DNA of 64,000 nt, taken from positions 186,001-250,000 of the forward strand of contig NZ_FOPH01000002.1 of assembly GCF_900113415.1 (NCBI RefSeq), in the 5' to 3' direction. Positions within the stretch are counted from its first letter, which is position 1, and the number at the start of each line of letters is the position of its first letter. Below, piece by piece: positions 4,663-48,827 of this stretch. This DNA comes from Oribacterium sp. WCC10 (GTDB taxonomy: Bacteria; Bacillota; Clostridia; Lachnospirales; Lachnospiraceae). Made by a program: the position numbers and the translations under genes. Under the pieces are notes generated by a model, which had not been told where the DNA came from, searched no databases, and was given only the letters and a program-made list of their open reading frames with translations.

Positions 4663-5256
4663 GTGAAACAATATGAGGTTCGTGGCAATACAGTCAGGGC
4701 TGTGGATGCGGAGGAGATGAGCGCTGCAAGCAGTACTGTTGTTATTGAACAGAGAGGTCATAGAGATCAGATACATCTGTACCGTACGGGTAGCGGACAG
4801 ATCAGGATGGAATATACAAAAGACAAAAGTGTAATTAAACCTATCTTTCGTTGCATTCCGGCTGTGGTTATAGACAGGATATGTTATGTGGCACTTGTGA
4901 TCTCGCTTATAGTGATATTTGCATCTTCATATCAGTGCATAAGTCTTGATACCAAAGTTTCAACAAGACTTGCAAGTATAGAACGTAAGCGCAGTGAGCT
5001 TGAAGATCTTAGACTTAAGAATGAAGAAATTCAGTCACAGATAAACAATGCGCTTGATCTTGATGCTATATATCGCGAAGCGACTGAAGTTTACGGTATG
5101 GCGCTTCCTAGTGAAGAGGATGAAGTGATTGTTTTTGAAAAGGGCAATACAGGTTATGTTCGTGCCCGTGATGATCTTCCGAAGAACTACACTGAGGATT
5201 CAAGTGTTACAGTGCTGCTGATGAATGAGCTGTCCAGGCTCCTCAATAAAAGCTGA
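4663..5256 (+). CDS. FtsL/DivIC-like bitopic membrane protein
   Basis: From the GTG at 4663 this is 197 aa. AAGGGG sits 9 nt upstream. Alternative TTG/GTG starts at 4600 and 4615 would lengthen it, with poorer ribosome sites. A cytoplasmic N-terminal part is followed by one membrane segment (IDRICYVALVISLIVIFAS) and then a charged heptad-like coiled coil (RLASIERKRSELEDLRLKNE). That order is typical of the septum proteins FtsL and DivIC, and the position of YGMALPSEEDEVIVFE after the coil also fits. It is not in a division-gene cluster here, so assignment to FtsL, DivIC or a paralogue remains open. A strong terminator follows. Confidence 0.65.
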   Translation: MKQYEVRGNTVRAVDAEEMSAASSTVVIEQRGHRDQIHLYRTGSGQIRMEYTKDKSVIKPIFRCIPAVVIDRICYVALVISLIVIFASSYQCISLDTKVSTRLASIERKRSELEDLRLKNEEIQSQINNALDLDAIYREATEVYGMALPSEEDEVIVFEKGNTGYVRARDDLPKNYTEDSSVTVLLMNELSRLLNKS

Positions 5257-5273
5257 GTATTATGAATAAACAT

Positions 5274-5308
5274 AAAAAGGGGGGTGTCCGTTTGGACATC
5301 CCTTTTTG
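5274..5308 (+). terminator. Terminator after FtsL/DivIC-like gene
   Basis: The stem AAAAAGGGGGGTGTCC / GGACATCCCTTTTT is a strong hairpin ending in T5. Confidence 0.85.
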
Positions 5309-5431
5309 AATACTGATGACGAATAAACAAATGGCATGGGGGGATGTTTCTCTGCGGAAAGGGAACAGGATGATATTTCTCATAATACTTATGAAATGTA
5401 TTAAATAAAAATAATTTCCACAAAATAAAAC

Positions 5432-5460
5432 TTTACAAATATATCATTTGCTGATATCAT
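5432..5460 (+). promoter_or_regulatory. Sigma-A promoter for the large RNA
   Basis: -35 TTTACA (5432-5437), a 17-nt spacer, -10 TATCAT (5455-5460). The predicted start is near 5467, just before a gene-free, heavily structured region. Confidence 0.65.
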
Positions 5461-5466
5461 AAGTAT

Positions 5467-6129
5467 AACAAAAAAAGAAAAGTCAACAGAAAAGTTCATC
5501 TGACGAGAAAGGGTGAAGGGCCGGTTGACAAAAGTGTAGGAGATGAACCTACGAAACTAGATCGAAGAAAGTAAGAGGTACAAAGCGATGACACCAGATC
5601 AGTCAGTCGATAGTATCCTCTGGACCGCTTAAAAAAGAAGAAAAACATGAGAACATCATCGAACCGTACATTCGATGAGGCAGTTCAAATCATTAGAGAA
5701 GTGCATCTTCGGATTATTTCTTAAAAGTCCAGGTGATATTATCGCAGAAGAGATCGGCATTGAAGGGTTATCAAAAGGATAGCTAAATAGAAAAGTGTAA
5801 ATTAGTTGAAGACCTTTAAGGGAGGTCATAGAGTCTTAAGAATCTGAAAAGAAGAATACTTTGAAAGATTAAAAAAGAAATTCAAGTAATAAATAAAAGC
5901 CGATCGACAATTGAATATCAAAACTGAATAAAGAAATAATCTATTTATAGATGATATCCATAAGATATAAAAGTTCTATCGAAGAGATATTAATAAAAGT
6001 AAATAGAAATCTAAGAAACGAGGTACAAACCGAAGTACAATTAAGTAAGGAAACTCGATAAAGAGTTTCAGGGTGTATTTAGTAATTAGGTAAAAATATG
6101 GGGCTACCGGAAGGTAGCCCTTTTCTTTT
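5467..6129 (+). ncRNA. Large (~660 nt) structured non-coding RNA candidate
   Basis: There is no ORF of 60 codons in this stretch, yet it is bounded by a good promoter and a strong terminator. The + strand is A/G-rich. Visible helices: GTTCATCT 5494-5501 with AGATGAAC 5541-5548; TCATCGAA 5656-5663 with TTCGATGA 5671-5678, closed further by GAAC/GTTC; GACCT 5811-5815 with AGGTC 5823-5827; CTATTTA 5941-5947 with TAAATAG 6000-6006; GAAACTC 6050-6056 with GAGTTTC 6063-6069; and the terminator stem. The 10-mer GAGGTACAAA occurs twice (5576 and 6020). Length, Lachnospiraceae/rumen-type host and ornate folding are compatible with the ROOL class of large RNAs, but I cannot confirm the family from memory. 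No group II intron domain V, RNase P or tmRNA signature was seen. Confidence 0.65.
6101..6129 (+). terminator. Terminator of the large RNA
   Basis: GGGCTACC, a GGAA tetraloop, GGTAGCCC, then TTTTCTTTT. Confidence 0.9.
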
Positions 6130-6214
6130 GATTTATTTTAGCGGTGGTTCCTGATTTCGGGAACCGCCGACGAATGTTGTTGATCTGATAAATGCTCATA
6201 TGAATGTATTGGAG

Positions 6215-7594
6215 TTATTCCATACGTGCAAGTTCGCGACGCACTCTCTTTATCACGAAAGAGTATGAAACTGCTGTAAAAGTACCGGCGGCTATCCATG
6301 CGGCAGGATCACAGAATACTGCAAGCTGGAAGCTTGTGAGATGCATGGCTATAAGGGCTACTATAAGTCTTGCGAAAAACTCGACCACGCCCCCCATCAT
6401 AGGAAGGAAACCGTGTCCGCAGCCCTGCATGGCATTACGGAAGATGAATATGAAGCTCAGTGGGATGTAGAACATGATAACTGTATGATTGTATGTTCTT
6501 GCCCATGGCATCATAAGTGATATGGTGTCGAGAACTTCTCCGTCTGTAACGGAACCGGTGTTGGCAAAAAACAGAGACATTACCGGTTTCAGAAGGAATA
6601 CACAGAGTATGGCAGCAAGGATGGCGTATGTGACTTCGATAACGATGGCGGCATGTACGCCCTTGTTTATTCGGTTACTGTCACGACATCCGTAATTCTG
6701 ACCGCAATAGGTGGCAACAGCCTGTCCCATGGCTAGCATTTCCTGAACCATAAGGCTGTTTAGCTTGTTTGCAGCGGTATAGGCTGCAACTGCGGTTGAG
6801 CCGAAAAGGTTGATTGCGGATTGCATTACCATGGTTCCGGAAGCTGTGATGCCAAACTGAAGCGCCATGGGAACGCCTACAGCCATCTGATGCTGGGTGT
6901 CTACACGATTGATGTGCCAATCCTTTTTATCAGGCCAAAGCACAGTTGCCTTCTGGTGAATGTATACGAGACAAAGGATTGCGGAGATTCCCTGAGAAAG
7001 ATTAGTGGCCCAGGCTGCACCGGCAACGCCCATCTTTCCTACTATAATAAAGATAAGATCCAAACCTACATTAAGACATGCACTGAATATAAGAAAGTAG
7101 AGAGGAACTTTGCTGTTTCCTATGGAACGTATGAATGCTGAGAATAGATTGTAGTAAACGCTGCATACAGTTCCTGCACAAATGATGGTGATGTAAGTAA
7201 GAGAATCCTGATAAATATTAGCCGGAGTGTTCATAAGATGAAGTAATGGTCTCATGAGGGAAACAGAAAGAAGTGTGACGATGCAGATGACTATAAGAGC
7301 AAGAAGTATGCCGTTTGCAACGCTTCGCTTGACTCTTTTATAGTTTTGGGCGCCGTAAGACTGTGAGGTCAGTACCGTAAAACCTGTACAAAGTCCCTGG
7401 GAAAAACCGAGAACCAGAAACATGATGTTTCCTGTGGCTCCTACAGCGGCCAATGCATCAGAGCTTACAAAGCGGCCAACGATGATAGTGTCTGCCATGT
7501 TGTAAAGTTGCTGAAAAACATTGCCTATAAAAAGGGGAATCATAAATTTGAGAATAATGGGAAACGGGTTTCCCTTCGTCATAGTTACTTCCAT
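6215..7594 (-). CDS. MATE-family multidrug/cation efflux transporter
   Basis: A 459-aa integral membrane protein with about 12 hydrophobic segments, the usual MatE size. The N-terminus PFPIILKFMIPLFIGNVFQQ and the segment MADTIIVGRFVSSDALAAVG are typical of the NorM/DinF-like MATE superfamily. Members export drugs or metabolites in exchange for Na+ or H+. The substrate cannot be read from sequence. Start: ATG at 7594 with GGAGG 6 nt upstream on the minus strand. It is convergent with the large RNA. An inverted repeat at 6142-6168 lies between the two 3' ends but has no clear T-tract. Confidence 0.9.
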   Translation of the reverse strand: MEVTMTKGNPFPIILKFMIPLFIGNVFQQLYNMADTIIVGRFVSSDALAAVGATGNIMFLVLGFSQGLCTGFTVLTSQSYGAQNYKRVKRSVANGILLALIVICIVTLLSVSLMRPLLHLMNTPANIYQDSLTYITIICAGTVCSVYYNLFSAFIRSIGNSKVPLYFLIFSACLNVGLDLIFIIVGKMGVAGAAWATNLSQGISAILCLVYIHQKATVLWPDKKDWHINRVDTQHQMAVGVPMALQFGITASGTMVMQSAINLFGSTAVAAYTAANKLNSLMVQEMLAMGQAVATYCGQNYGCRDSNRINKGVHAAIVIEVTYAILAAILCVFLLKPVMSLFFANTGSVTDGEVLDTISLMMPWARTYNHTVIMFYIPLSFIFIFRNAMQGCGHGFLPMMGGVVEFFARLIVALIAMHLTSFQLAVFCDPAAWIAAGTFTAVSYSFVIKRVRRELARME

Positions 7595-8297: not shown

Positions 8298-10313
8298 ATG
8301 TTTTGCGAGAAATGCGGAACCCAAATAACTGAAGAAGCAAAATTTTGTCCTAACTGTGGCGCACCTTTGAAGAAGGAGGTACCTGTCCAGGATGGACCGA
8401 TAGCGGCGGAAGCTGAGACAACAGAGAATGTTCCAACTGCGGAAACAGAAGCTGAAGCACATGAAACAAGGGCGACAGAGGATAATTCTGGTACAGCAGA
8501 GGCGGTTGTGTCTCCGGTAGAAGGATCCTTTGAGACTGTGGAAGGCGGTGAAATTTCAAATACAGAAATTTCAAATACAGAAGTTTCAAATGCAGAAACT
8601 TCAATCAAAGAGACTGCCGTGGAAAAATCCGGTATTGAAGATACTTTAGCTCAGGCTGCAGATGAAGTGGCTTCAGAAGCGGATGCCGGTGGAATATCAA
8701 ATGCAGAAGTTCCTGCGGTGACTGAAGTATCAGATAGTTCTGTAACTGATCCTGCAGATGTAAATGTATCTAATGAGGAGACTGCTCCAAAGGAGAATCT
8801 GACAGAACAGTATGCAAGACGTATAGCAGAGCAAAAGGCTGCCACGGGAGGCGGAGCATTTGCCGGAGCTATGGCATCCGGTGAGCAGAACGGCCAGTAT
8901 AATGGTCAGCCGGGCCAGTACAATGGTCAGACAGGCCAGTACAATGGTCAGGCAGGCCAGTACAATGGCCAGCCGGGCCAGTACAATGGCCAGACAGGCC
9001 AGTACAATGGTCAGACAGGTCAGTACAATGGTCAGGCAGGCCAGTACAACGGTCAGACAGGCCAGTACAATGGCCAGGCAGGCCAGTACAACGGTCAGAC
9101 AGGCCAGTACAACGGTCAGACAGGCCAGTTTAGTGGCCGGCAGGGTGCCCAGGGTCAGTTTGGACAGGGCCAGCCCGGATATGGAAATAACGGAGGACCT
9201 CAGTACAACGCACCAAAGCCGAAGAATTCTCTTGCTACAGCGGGAAATGTTCTTGCTATAGTTGCTTTGGTTCTTGCATTCTTCCAGGTATTTCATGTCC
9301 TCGGTTCATTCTTCGGTATAGTGGGAAGCTTTGCGGATGAAGGCGTCCTTGGATTTATATATGGCGTAGGAAATTTTGTGATCCAGCTCATAAAGATGTG
9401 TGGTCTCCTTGGCTCGGCTCTGGTAATGTTCCTTATATGGAAGAAGTGGGATGACAATAAAGCAGAACCGTTAATGGTTGGCACACTTGCCGGTGGAATA
9501 GTTATAGTTCTTTCGGTTATAGTCCGAGCTGTTTTTGTAGCGATATTTAATGCTGCTTTCGGTTACGATTATGCAAGTATGTTCTCGGGCGCATTCCTGA
9601 GCGTCATCTTTGCGATTGTTATGATGGCTCTCACATATGTATTTATGGGAGAAAGACATATCAATCCGCTTGCGGGACTTCAGGGCGGAAATGCCGGAGA
9701 TACCATTAAGAAAGATATCGAAGTTCTTTCGGATATGGCTGTTGAGGCTAAAAATGAATATCAGTCGGGAAAGAATAACCCGTCCGGTAATGCAAACTAC
9801 AATTACAATGGAGTTAATCAGAATTATAATCAGTATCAGCAGCAGGGACAGAGCGCTCCTTACGGAGGGGTGAATGGAGCAGGACAACCTAATGTATTTG
9901 CGTCAGCACCGCTTGCTACTGACAGAAGTCTTGTGACTTATATCCTCTTGGGATTTGTTACATGTGGAATCTATAGTCTTTACATGCTTCACTGTATCAT
10001 TAAGGATGTTAACATCACCTGTGCAGGTGATGGAAAGACCACATCAAGTATTTGGGCTTATATAGGCTTTGGTATCCTTACATGTGGAATTTATGACATG
10101 ATATGGCTCTACAACCTTGGAAACAGACTTCAGTATAATGCACCTCGTTATGGTATGAATTTCCAGGAAAACGGTACCACGGTACTTCTTTGGGAACTGT
10201 TCGGTGCAGTTCTCTGCGGAGTCGGTCCTTTTATTGCGGCGCATATCATTATCAAGAATTCAAATGCTTTGAATGCGGCGTATAACAACATGATGTTCCA
10301 GCAGAACAGATAA
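8298..10313 (+). CDS. Zinc-ribbon, GQYNGQ-repeat, DUF4234 membrane protein
   Basis: A 671-aa protein. It has a zinc ribbon at residues 2-25 (FCEKCGTQIT and FCPNCGAPL), then a Glu/Ala/Thr-rich acidic stretch with 5-aa SNTE(I/V) repeats (~residues 86-100). From residue 199 there are eleven heptads GQYNGQ(P/T/A) plus one degenerate copy. Four or so membrane helices follow (about 310-450), then a Gln/Asn-rich linker and a C-terminal DUF4234 domain (from RSLVTYILLGFVTCGIYSLY), itself with membrane helices. Start: ATG after GAGAGGGG. Function is unknown. Zinc ribbon plus DUF4234 is a common Lachnospiraceae arrangement; the long tandem repeat is the unusual part. Confidence 0.8.
   Translation: MFCEKCGTQITEEAKFCPNCGAPLKKEVPVQDGPIAAEAETTENVPTAETEAEAHETRATEDNSGTAEAVVSPVEGSFETVEGGEISNTEISNTEVSNAETSIKETAVEKSGIEDTLAQAADEVASEADAGGISNAEVPAVTEVSDSSVTDPADVNVSNEETAPKENLTEQYARRIAEQKAATGGGAFAGAMASGEQNGQYNGQPGQYNGQTGQYNGQAGQYNGQPGQYNGQTGQYNGQTGQYNGQAGQYNGQTGQYNGQAGQYNGQTGQYNGQTGQFSGRQGAQGQFGQGQPGYGNNGGPQYNAPKPKNSLATAGNVLAIVALVLAFFQVFHVLGSFFGIVGSFADEGVLGFIYGVGNFVIQLIKMCGLLGSALVMFLIWKKWDDNKAEPLMVGTLAGGIVIVLSVIVRAVFVAIFNAAFGYDYASMFSGAFLSVIFAIVMMALTYVFMGERHINPLAGLQGGNAGDTIKKDIEVLSDMAVEAKNEYQSGKNNPSGNANYNYNGVNQNYNQYQQQGQSAPYGGVNGAGQPNVFASAPLATDRSLVTYILLGFVTCGIYSLYMLHCIIKDVNITCAGDGKTTSSIWAYIGFGILTCGIYDMIWLYNLGNRLQYNAPRYGMNFQENGTTVLLWELFGAVLCGVGPFIAAHIIIKNSNALNAAYNNMMFQQNR
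8892..9143 (+). repeat. 21-bp in-frame tandem repeat (VNTR)
   Basis: Eleven near-identical 21-bp units (for example GGCCAGTACAATGGTCAGAC) plus a twelfth degenerate one, coding GQYNGQ(P/T/A). The units vary mainly at third positions and at the last codon (CCG/ACA/GCA), so copies have been reshuffled by slippage or recombination. Confidence 0.95.
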
Positions 10314-48474: not shown

Positions 48475-48520
48475 AAGTAACTGAACAATTTAATGCATGA
48501 AAGCATAAAAGTGTAAAAGC

Positions 48521-48827
48521 GTTGAAGGAGAAGAGCGTTCACAGACGTTCTCCACAGAGAGCGATGGATGGTGTGATCATCGCGGGGGCAGTGAGTTGCT
48601 TATCACTCCGGAGCTGCAGCTTTGAACATTTATATCCGGCATACATATGCGCTTTTGATTATGGAGTATAGGTTATGACAGATATGGTAAGTAAAGGCTG
48701 ACGTAGTATCTCACGTTACAGGGAGACGGATTGTTTGATCCATGAGTGCAGGACGTAGTCCTGAAGTCGGGTGGTACCGCGTAATATGATTTTACGTCCC
48801 GGGAGTGTTATACTCCCGGGATTTTTT
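48521..48827 (+). promoter_or_regulatory. T-box riboswitch controlling the NSS transporter
   Basis: The diagnostic T-box GGGTGGTACCGCG lies at 48769-48781. It is preceded by stem III (CAGGAC / GTCCTG) and by a stem I region that starts GAAGGAGAAGAG and contains AGAGAGCG with an apical loop. The terminator is TCCCGGGAGT / ACTCCCGGGA followed by T6 (48797-48827). Binding of uncharged tRNA switches transcription on. By alignment to the usual ...XXX-CTCCGGAGCTG end of stem I, the best specifier candidate is AUC (Ile) at 48602-48604; this is tentative. Confidence 0.92.

Follow-up and report, generated by a model that had tools for sequence, protein, structure and literature searches.

Introduction

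Apart from those of the ribosome, bacteria have, to our knowledge, few large structured RNAs, and most of them are unexplained. RNAIII of Staphylococcus aureus is a long regulatory RNA that contains a short ORF and, with its delta-haemolysin, serves as the model of a dual-function messenger with structured flanks. ROOL genes lie in phages and prophages, in many cases close to tRNA islands, and a 659-nt example from the cow rumen has been named (PMC12286853). OLE is structured and about 600 nt long. The raiA motif RNA, or ModT (RF03072), is reported to be very abundant in C. difficile (PMC11706538), and a long RNA of Lactobacillus salivarius has been described (PMC5643018).

The locus considered here lies in Oribacterium, at 5432-6129 of a stretch of 64,000 nucleotides that was analysed as a whole and is called the window. 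The original prediction had seen in it a gene for an RNA of about 660 nt, equipped with a promoter and a terminator, an observation now confirmed by the sequence itself, homologues, fold and covariation. That this interval encodes a conserved structured RNA is nearly certain from such comparisons. With a probability of roughly 0.6, we read it more fully as a gene on the chromosome whose product is a structured RNA that stands alone, acts in trans and belongs to an uncatalogued class, and whose 5′ domain would be engaged by ribosomes.

The window RNA is like ROOL in size, and both are large structured bacterial RNAs, but it gives no match to an Rfam model, occupies fixed chromosomal places and carries a mini-ORF with a Shine-Dalgarno sequence and a start codon. 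With raiA/ModT it shares the character of a standalone conserved RNA of Bacillota; the raiA model, however, has 209 positions and finds nothing here even when E values up to 10 are allowed. OLE is also long and structured, yet the window RNA has no match to the OLE model, and unlike RNAIII it bears no sign of selection on its peptide. In the parts covered, the papers on ROOL, GOLLD and OLE, on raiA/ModT and on the L. salivarius RNA do not describe it, nor do three surveys (PMC11109978, PMC8040213, PMC8632094), whose main text contains neither "Lachnospir" nor "Oribacterium" and whose supplements may hold an unnamed candidate. Among the matches listed for literature on Oribacterium and noncoding RNA, no title concerns such an RNA.

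The RNA gene and its boundaries

The gene is delimited by three features.

5400-5460, + strand: promoter with an A/T-rich stretch upstream (from sequence; -35 and spacing kept in 8 of 8 long copies)
5467-6129, + strand: RNA gene of about 660 nt (from homologues, fold and alignments), with a putative start near 5467 and a presumed end in the T-run
6101-6129, + strand: intrinsic terminator GGGCTACC-GGAA-GGTAGCCC followed by a T-rich run (from sequence)

The promoter, announced as TTTACA-17-TATCAT, is found at 5432-5460 just as described: its -35 hexamer TTTACA (5432-5437) is followed by a 17-nt spacer and by the -10 hexamer TATCAT (5455-5460), with an extended -10 TGA. All eight long copies of the RNA keep TTTACA and a -10-like hexamer 17 nt further on, the latter being poor in three (L049 and L050 not counted), and a similar pair is seen by eye in most other copies. 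The tetraloop terminator is likewise in place at 6101-6129, and it is strong. Together with the compact fold, the A/T-rich element before the promoter suggests that the RNA may be both abundant and stable.

The + strand is indeed rich in purines, as had been noted, with a fraction of 0.640 over 5467-6127; when the window is taken in stretches of 661 nt, whichever of the purine and pyrimidine fractions is larger averages 0.554 and reaches 0.646 at most. The repeated 10-mer GAGGTACAAA also holds, with two copies on the + strand and none on the - strand, except that the first of them starts at 5575, one position before the 5576 originally given; the second is at 6020 as reported.

Since about 175 nt separate the promoter from the end of the upstream gene, the region might be thought a cis-regulatory leader, a 3′ UTR or a transcribed gene remnant. 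Such a reading is very improbable: the terminator precedes a gene on the opposite strand (MATE, pepT or metA), and the promoter sequence of its own, the covariation and the fact that no - strand ORF is kept all argue against it. Coding on the - strand was considered for ORFs of 50 and 57 aa and rejected, as stops interrupt both of them in each of seven close relatives.

Elsewhere in the window, two tRNA genes stand at 41-288, 5 kb from the RNA gene with ORFs between, the gene at 8298-10313 encodes a product with a run of GQYNGQ-type repeats (window 8860-9260), and a T-box leader at 48513-48804 scores above the Rfam cut-off.

Comparison with known RNA classes

None of the 4227 families of Rfam release 15, among which we take ROOL, GOLLD and OLE to be included, reaches its curated threshold on 5432-6129. 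When matches at E up to 10 are admitted over 5250-6220, ROOL, GOLLD, OLE and raiA are still absent, and the weak matches fall mostly on the terminator; MicX, GibS and FopS, which match weakly at the terminator or 3′ end, are far below their cut-offs and were set aside. The same search on 24 related loci (7 at E up to 1 and 17 at E up to 0.5) gives no relevant match on the RNA. Two other identities were dismissed on location: the genome has its own tmRNA elsewhere, at G000:C13, and a 6S candidate, also elsewhere in G000:C13, that scores 41.3 bits, below the cut-off of 46.4.

The original prediction had favoured ROOL by size and host type, with GOLLD, OLE or a new class as alternatives. Size, a promoter of its own and a Bacillota host do fit one of the ornate RNAs already known (ROOL, GOLLD, OLE, raiA). 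At the level of Rfam models this is refuted, for relatives as well as for the window RNA, and against it also stand the fixed chromosomal places and the blastn results, in which the window RNA has no match in plasmids and, in phages, just four short ones that cover 4-8% of the query. Membership of these classes can thus be given hardly any weight, and with a negative Rfam search the evidence favours the last of the alternatives, a new class.

Fold and covariation

The + strand of 5467-6127 folds more stably than every one of its 20 dinucleotide shuffles (z -6.6), and the - strand also beats its shuffles (z -5.1). Because both strands fold well, fold energy alone is insufficient to name the strand, which is assigned from the promoter, the terminator and the homologues. 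At the 5′ end, three helices are defined.

5482-5529, + strand: helix P1, GUCAAC (5482-5487) with GUUGAC (5524-5529), enclosing P1b (alignment, covariation)
5495-5517, + strand: hairpin P1b, with the 11-nt loop UGACGAGAAAG at 5501-5511 (covariation)
5535-5553, + strand: hairpin P2, UGUAGG with CCUACG (both sides changed at 3 of 6 pairs)

In P1, 84.6% of cells are paired and both sides have changed at two of the four pairs tested; in P1b the same is true of five pairs out of six, and its loop UGACGAGAAAG occurs also in RNAs of other genera of the family. A MAFFT alignment of 13 copies, not fitted to any structure, forms 93.8% of cells over the 16 pairs of P1, P1b and P2. Ten of these pairs have changed on both sides, and none of 500 shuffles is as high on any of five measures, while versions of the structure slid along this alignment pair only 35-44% of cells. 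In a model-fitted alignment of 23 sequences the count rises to 16 of 16 pairs, a figure that leans towards the structure because the alignment was fitted to the model. The proposal of a structured RNA is upheld by these covarying 5′ helices.

Further downstream, the structure is drawn from the following features.

5608-5744, + strand: long-range helix P3, 5608-5625 (in the mini-ORF) with 5727-5744, predicted to close a two-hairpin domain (RNAalifold)
5651-5686, + strand: hairpin inside P3, GAACATCATCGAACC...GGCAGTTC (fold, alignment, sequence)
5695-5722, + strand: hairpin inside P3, AGAGAAGTGCATCTTCGGATTATTTCTT (fold, alignment, sequence)
5811-5827, + strand: hairpin GACCTTTAAGGGAGGTC (fold, alignment, sequence)
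5940-6007, + strand: helix UCUAUUUA with UAAAUAGA, with an inner helix (RNAalifold)
6020-6038, + strand: 3′ module GAGGTACAAACCGAAGTAC, holding the second GAGGTACAAA (alignment, sequence)
6049-6069, + strand: hairpin GGAAACTCGATAAAGAGTTTC (both sides changed at 2 of 5 pairs, RNAalifold)

RNAalifold predicts 118 pairs from eight long copies, 8 of them changed on both sides, and 96 pairs from seven short copies, 18 of them so changed, these structures being predicted from the very alignments on which the changes are counted. The changes in P3 are one-sided only in the long copies and two-sided at four pairs in the short ones. The helix at 5940-6007 is neither supported nor refuted, because its pairs are invariant in the eight long copies. 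At the equivalent of the 3′ module, 9 of 10 copies at other loci carry ATG or TTG (by eye), and copies of the window's type carry AAG. The motif CUGACGAGAAAG, which presumably resembles that of a hammerhead ribozyme, was rejected as such by eye: the hairpin loop is closed and the third strand is missing.

The start module and its short reading frame

After P2, and running into P3, comes an element of another kind.

5566-5590, + strand: Shine-Dalgarno-start module AGAAAGUAAGAGGU...AUG, with GAGG at 5575-5578 and AUG at 5588-5590 (conserved in copies)
5588-5632, + strand: mini-ORF of 14 codons, MTPDQSVDSILWTA (start and open frame kept)

The region had been described as having no ORF, which is nearly right: no - strand frame is conserved, and what was missed is this 14-codon frame with its Shine-Dalgarno sequence. 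Each of the 25 Oribacterium copies read has the Shine-Dalgarno sequence, the start and a frame that stays open for 12-19 codons, a count that favours finding ATG because the pattern demanded one behind a GAGG-like stretch; of 26 copies, 23 were read by this pattern, L005 and L032 (as L012) separately, and G014:C30 was left out. In one copy (L079) the aligned start has changed from ATG to ATA and the preceding codon has become ATG, so that two substitutions have relocated the start in frame.

Conservation and relocation of the start are what one would expect of a dual-function messenger, a transcript serving mainly to make a short peptide between structured flanks, with 12-19 aa in Oribacterium and 25-36 aa in the Type I RNA treated below. 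Among the eight long copies, however, every substitution in the mini-ORF alters an amino acid, so the frame could be a by-product of RNA conservation; the second half of the mini-ORF is also the 5′ strand of the predicted P3. The peptide itself is probably not the product.

The same sequences have suggested a sponge, in which many Shine-Dalgarno-like sites would titrate 30S subunits through their anti-Shine-Dalgarno sequence. AGAAAG occurs in the loop of P1b, and AGAAAG..GAGGU in the start module, both of which we take to be complementary to the usual 3′ end of 16S rRNA, and nine of 17 Oribacterium RNAs, mostly short copies, are enriched in strong sites of this sort, with at most one of 30 shuffles reaching their density. 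The window RNA itself is not enriched: it has six sites where shuffles average 4.8, and 9 of 30 shuffles reach that number. Nor are the other seven Oribacterium RNAs enriched, or any of six Type I RNAs, whose density is reached by 20 to 28 of 30 shuffles, and this makes a sponge quite improbable.

Distribution in Oribacterium

In blastn, the window RNA has seven close copies of 79-85% identity in genomes of the same genus. A covariance model of its 5′ 125 positions (R1) matches 17 of 17 Oribacterium genomes, the window's own included, and finds two separate copies in nine of them. Six of the 17 (G001, G002, G005, G006, G009 and G013) had given no sequence to the model, and their best E values range from 9e-18 to 1.7e-5; the two matches in G002 are a single copy with an insertion in P2. 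The own genome carries a second, shorter copy, overlooked in the original prediction, at G000:C40:102001-102133 (L047), between fthC and pepT and with a terminator at its end.

These genes keep to fixed places. An ftsL-like gene lies upstream of all eight long copies, the window's included, and a MATE gene was detected downstream of seven, while the long copy of G003 adjoins a DEAD-box helicase gene. The 16 other copies examined lie between fthC and pepT (10) or have as neighbour pepT only (3), fthC only (1) or metA (2, in G006 and G008). The shared upstream neighbour of the long copies bears out the earlier view that the gene is chromosomal and in no obvious prophage.

Several weaker candidates were discarded. 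Four loci found by pattern in viral contigs are unconvincing (model R2, E 0.036 to 0.46), weak R1 or R2 matches outside the genus look unrelated by eye (L040, L042, L043, L044, L056, L057 and L058), and several matches of a pattern scan over genome contigs look like the starts of protein genes, ileS for example (by eye).

Type I RNA of Lachnospiraceae

Of 397 genomes of the family, 59 contain the 13-mer CTGACGAGAAAGG, about as many as might largely be expected by chance. Among 30 loci with it, a stem of 4-11 bp surrounds the loop in 14 and one of 1-2 bp in 16, the closing C-G counted. Ten of the 14 stemmed loci, and none of the 16 with a weak stem, fall in one kind of long RNA, here called Type I. 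This uncatalogued RNA of about 700 nt has in most cases a promoter of the type TTGACA-17-TATTAT, and then, in order, the hairpin, a Shine-Dalgarno sequence GGAGGCTT, a TTG start, an ORF containing QYVSG, several hundred nucleotides and a terminator (examples are L128, L123, L136, L054 and L165).

A model of the Shine-Dalgarno-ORF region without the hairpin (R3), built from 12 sequences and used at E up to 0.01, matches 48 of the 397 genomes, in 41 of 334 genera, or 37 genera without the five weakest and doubtful matches; 11 of the 48 had supplied sequences to the model. In 246 genomes drawn from the order it has one match, itself in the same family, and blastn with a Type I RNA yields nothing useful in phages or plasmids. 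For raiA, there is no match in the own genome or in 270 genomes of the family, and since control genomes are silent too, absence is not implied; a replacement of raiA by the Oribacterium RNA or by Type I was considered.

Type I brings further evidence on the dual-function messenger introduced above. All 30 of the best R3 loci have a start, TTG in 18 and ATG in 12, followed by 25-36 open codons, in a search whose pattern required [AGT]TGGA, and in 12 aligned RNAs the indels between start and QYVSG are of 3 nt only. Against a selected peptide, pN (0.27) is not below pS (0.21) over 12 ORFs, the peptides differ widely between genera, and none of the four scanned has a Pfam or NCBIfam match. The conservation of the QYVSG codons is explained by an RNA pseudoknot that they form with downstream segments. 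In its first part, TCAATATG with CATATTGA, all eight pairs are formed in 28 of 28 rows and three are two-sided; in its second, GTGGTAT with ATACCAC, 95.4% of cells are paired and one pair is two-sided. Shuffles are as high in 0 of 500 for two-sided cells, 3 of 500 for two-sided pairs and 230 of 500 for pair types. Taken together, these results leave a messenger whose main product is the peptide an unlikely account. Hairpins that would sequester the Type I start were rejected: 84.6% of cells are paired, yet 131 of 500 shuffles are as high for two-sided pairs. Alignment A12 excludes two loci, L147 because of a contig end and L168 because of its short length.

Two side observations concern the surroundings of such RNAs. 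In 9 of 15 loci examined (L145, L150, L154, L157, L158, L160, L162, L167 and L171), a product starting with (L/V)DK(Y/H)EY(R/K) is encoded downstream of Type I and may be a functional neighbour. In Candidatus Scybalocola, two tandem RNAs have the UGACGAGAAAG hairpin as well (L074 at 5126 and 6012; L081 at 620 and 1635) and carry a 7-codon ORF, MIEPVQQ, just before the terminator.

How, then, is the window RNA related to Type I? The loop hairpin near the 5′ end, present in the window RNA at 5495-5517, the type of promoter, the Shine-Dalgarno-start module with a short ORF and the terminator are found in both. The hairpin is not a strict mark of Type I, since the loop with a stem of at least 4 pairs occurs within 700 nt upstream in 15 of the 30 best R3 loci and is missing in the other 15, which weakens the link. 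On the Oribacterium RNAs searched, R3 (QYVSG/pseudoknot) gives nothing significant (best E 0.11, L039), and it does not hit the genome of the window either. A start-module profile matches L036, L037 and L039 weakly and the window not at all; L036 scores 5.3 bits, and 6 of 3100 shuffles score at least 5. In another genus, L119 combines the hairpin with a start module that scores 11.3 bits, where none of 3100 shuffles reaches 8 and the highest has 6.2, and may be a bridge between the two RNAs. By such resemblances, common descent or shared modules are likely. The window RNA is best not filed as Type I; the two have modules in common.

Proposed mechanism

The preferred reading, a standalone trans-acting RNA, can be extended to a mechanism, though one to be taken as tentative, with the odds rather against it as a whole. 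A stable RNA would combine a docking hairpin with a ribosome-entry module that overlaps long-range helices. The UGACGAGAAAG hairpin would be the docking site for a protein or RNA partner, and ribosomes would load on the Shine-Dalgarno-start module, a step supported by the conservation of the start and by its one relocation. Translation of the mini-ORF would then open P3, so that the RNA may switch between two folds; this switch is suggested by the overlap of the mini-ORF with P3, and against it stands the lack of two-sided changes of P3 in the long copies.

A wider version would have one ancient class in Lachnospiraceae, a translation-gated structural RNA that would be Type I elsewhere, with the Oribacterium RNA as a divergent branch. 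The codons of the start module would double as strands of long-range helices, and translation of a throw-away mini-ORF would refold an RNA that also bears a protein-docking hairpin. From the sequences compared, so broad a unity seems doubtful.

Significance

Lachnospiraceae are major bacteria of the gut and rumen. The present analysis adds one RNA class, found throughout the 17 Oribacterium genomes examined, and points to a second that is absent from Rfam, Type I, in 48 of 397 genomes of the family. With its built-in start module, such an RNA ties a long structured RNA to translation in a definite way that can be tested.
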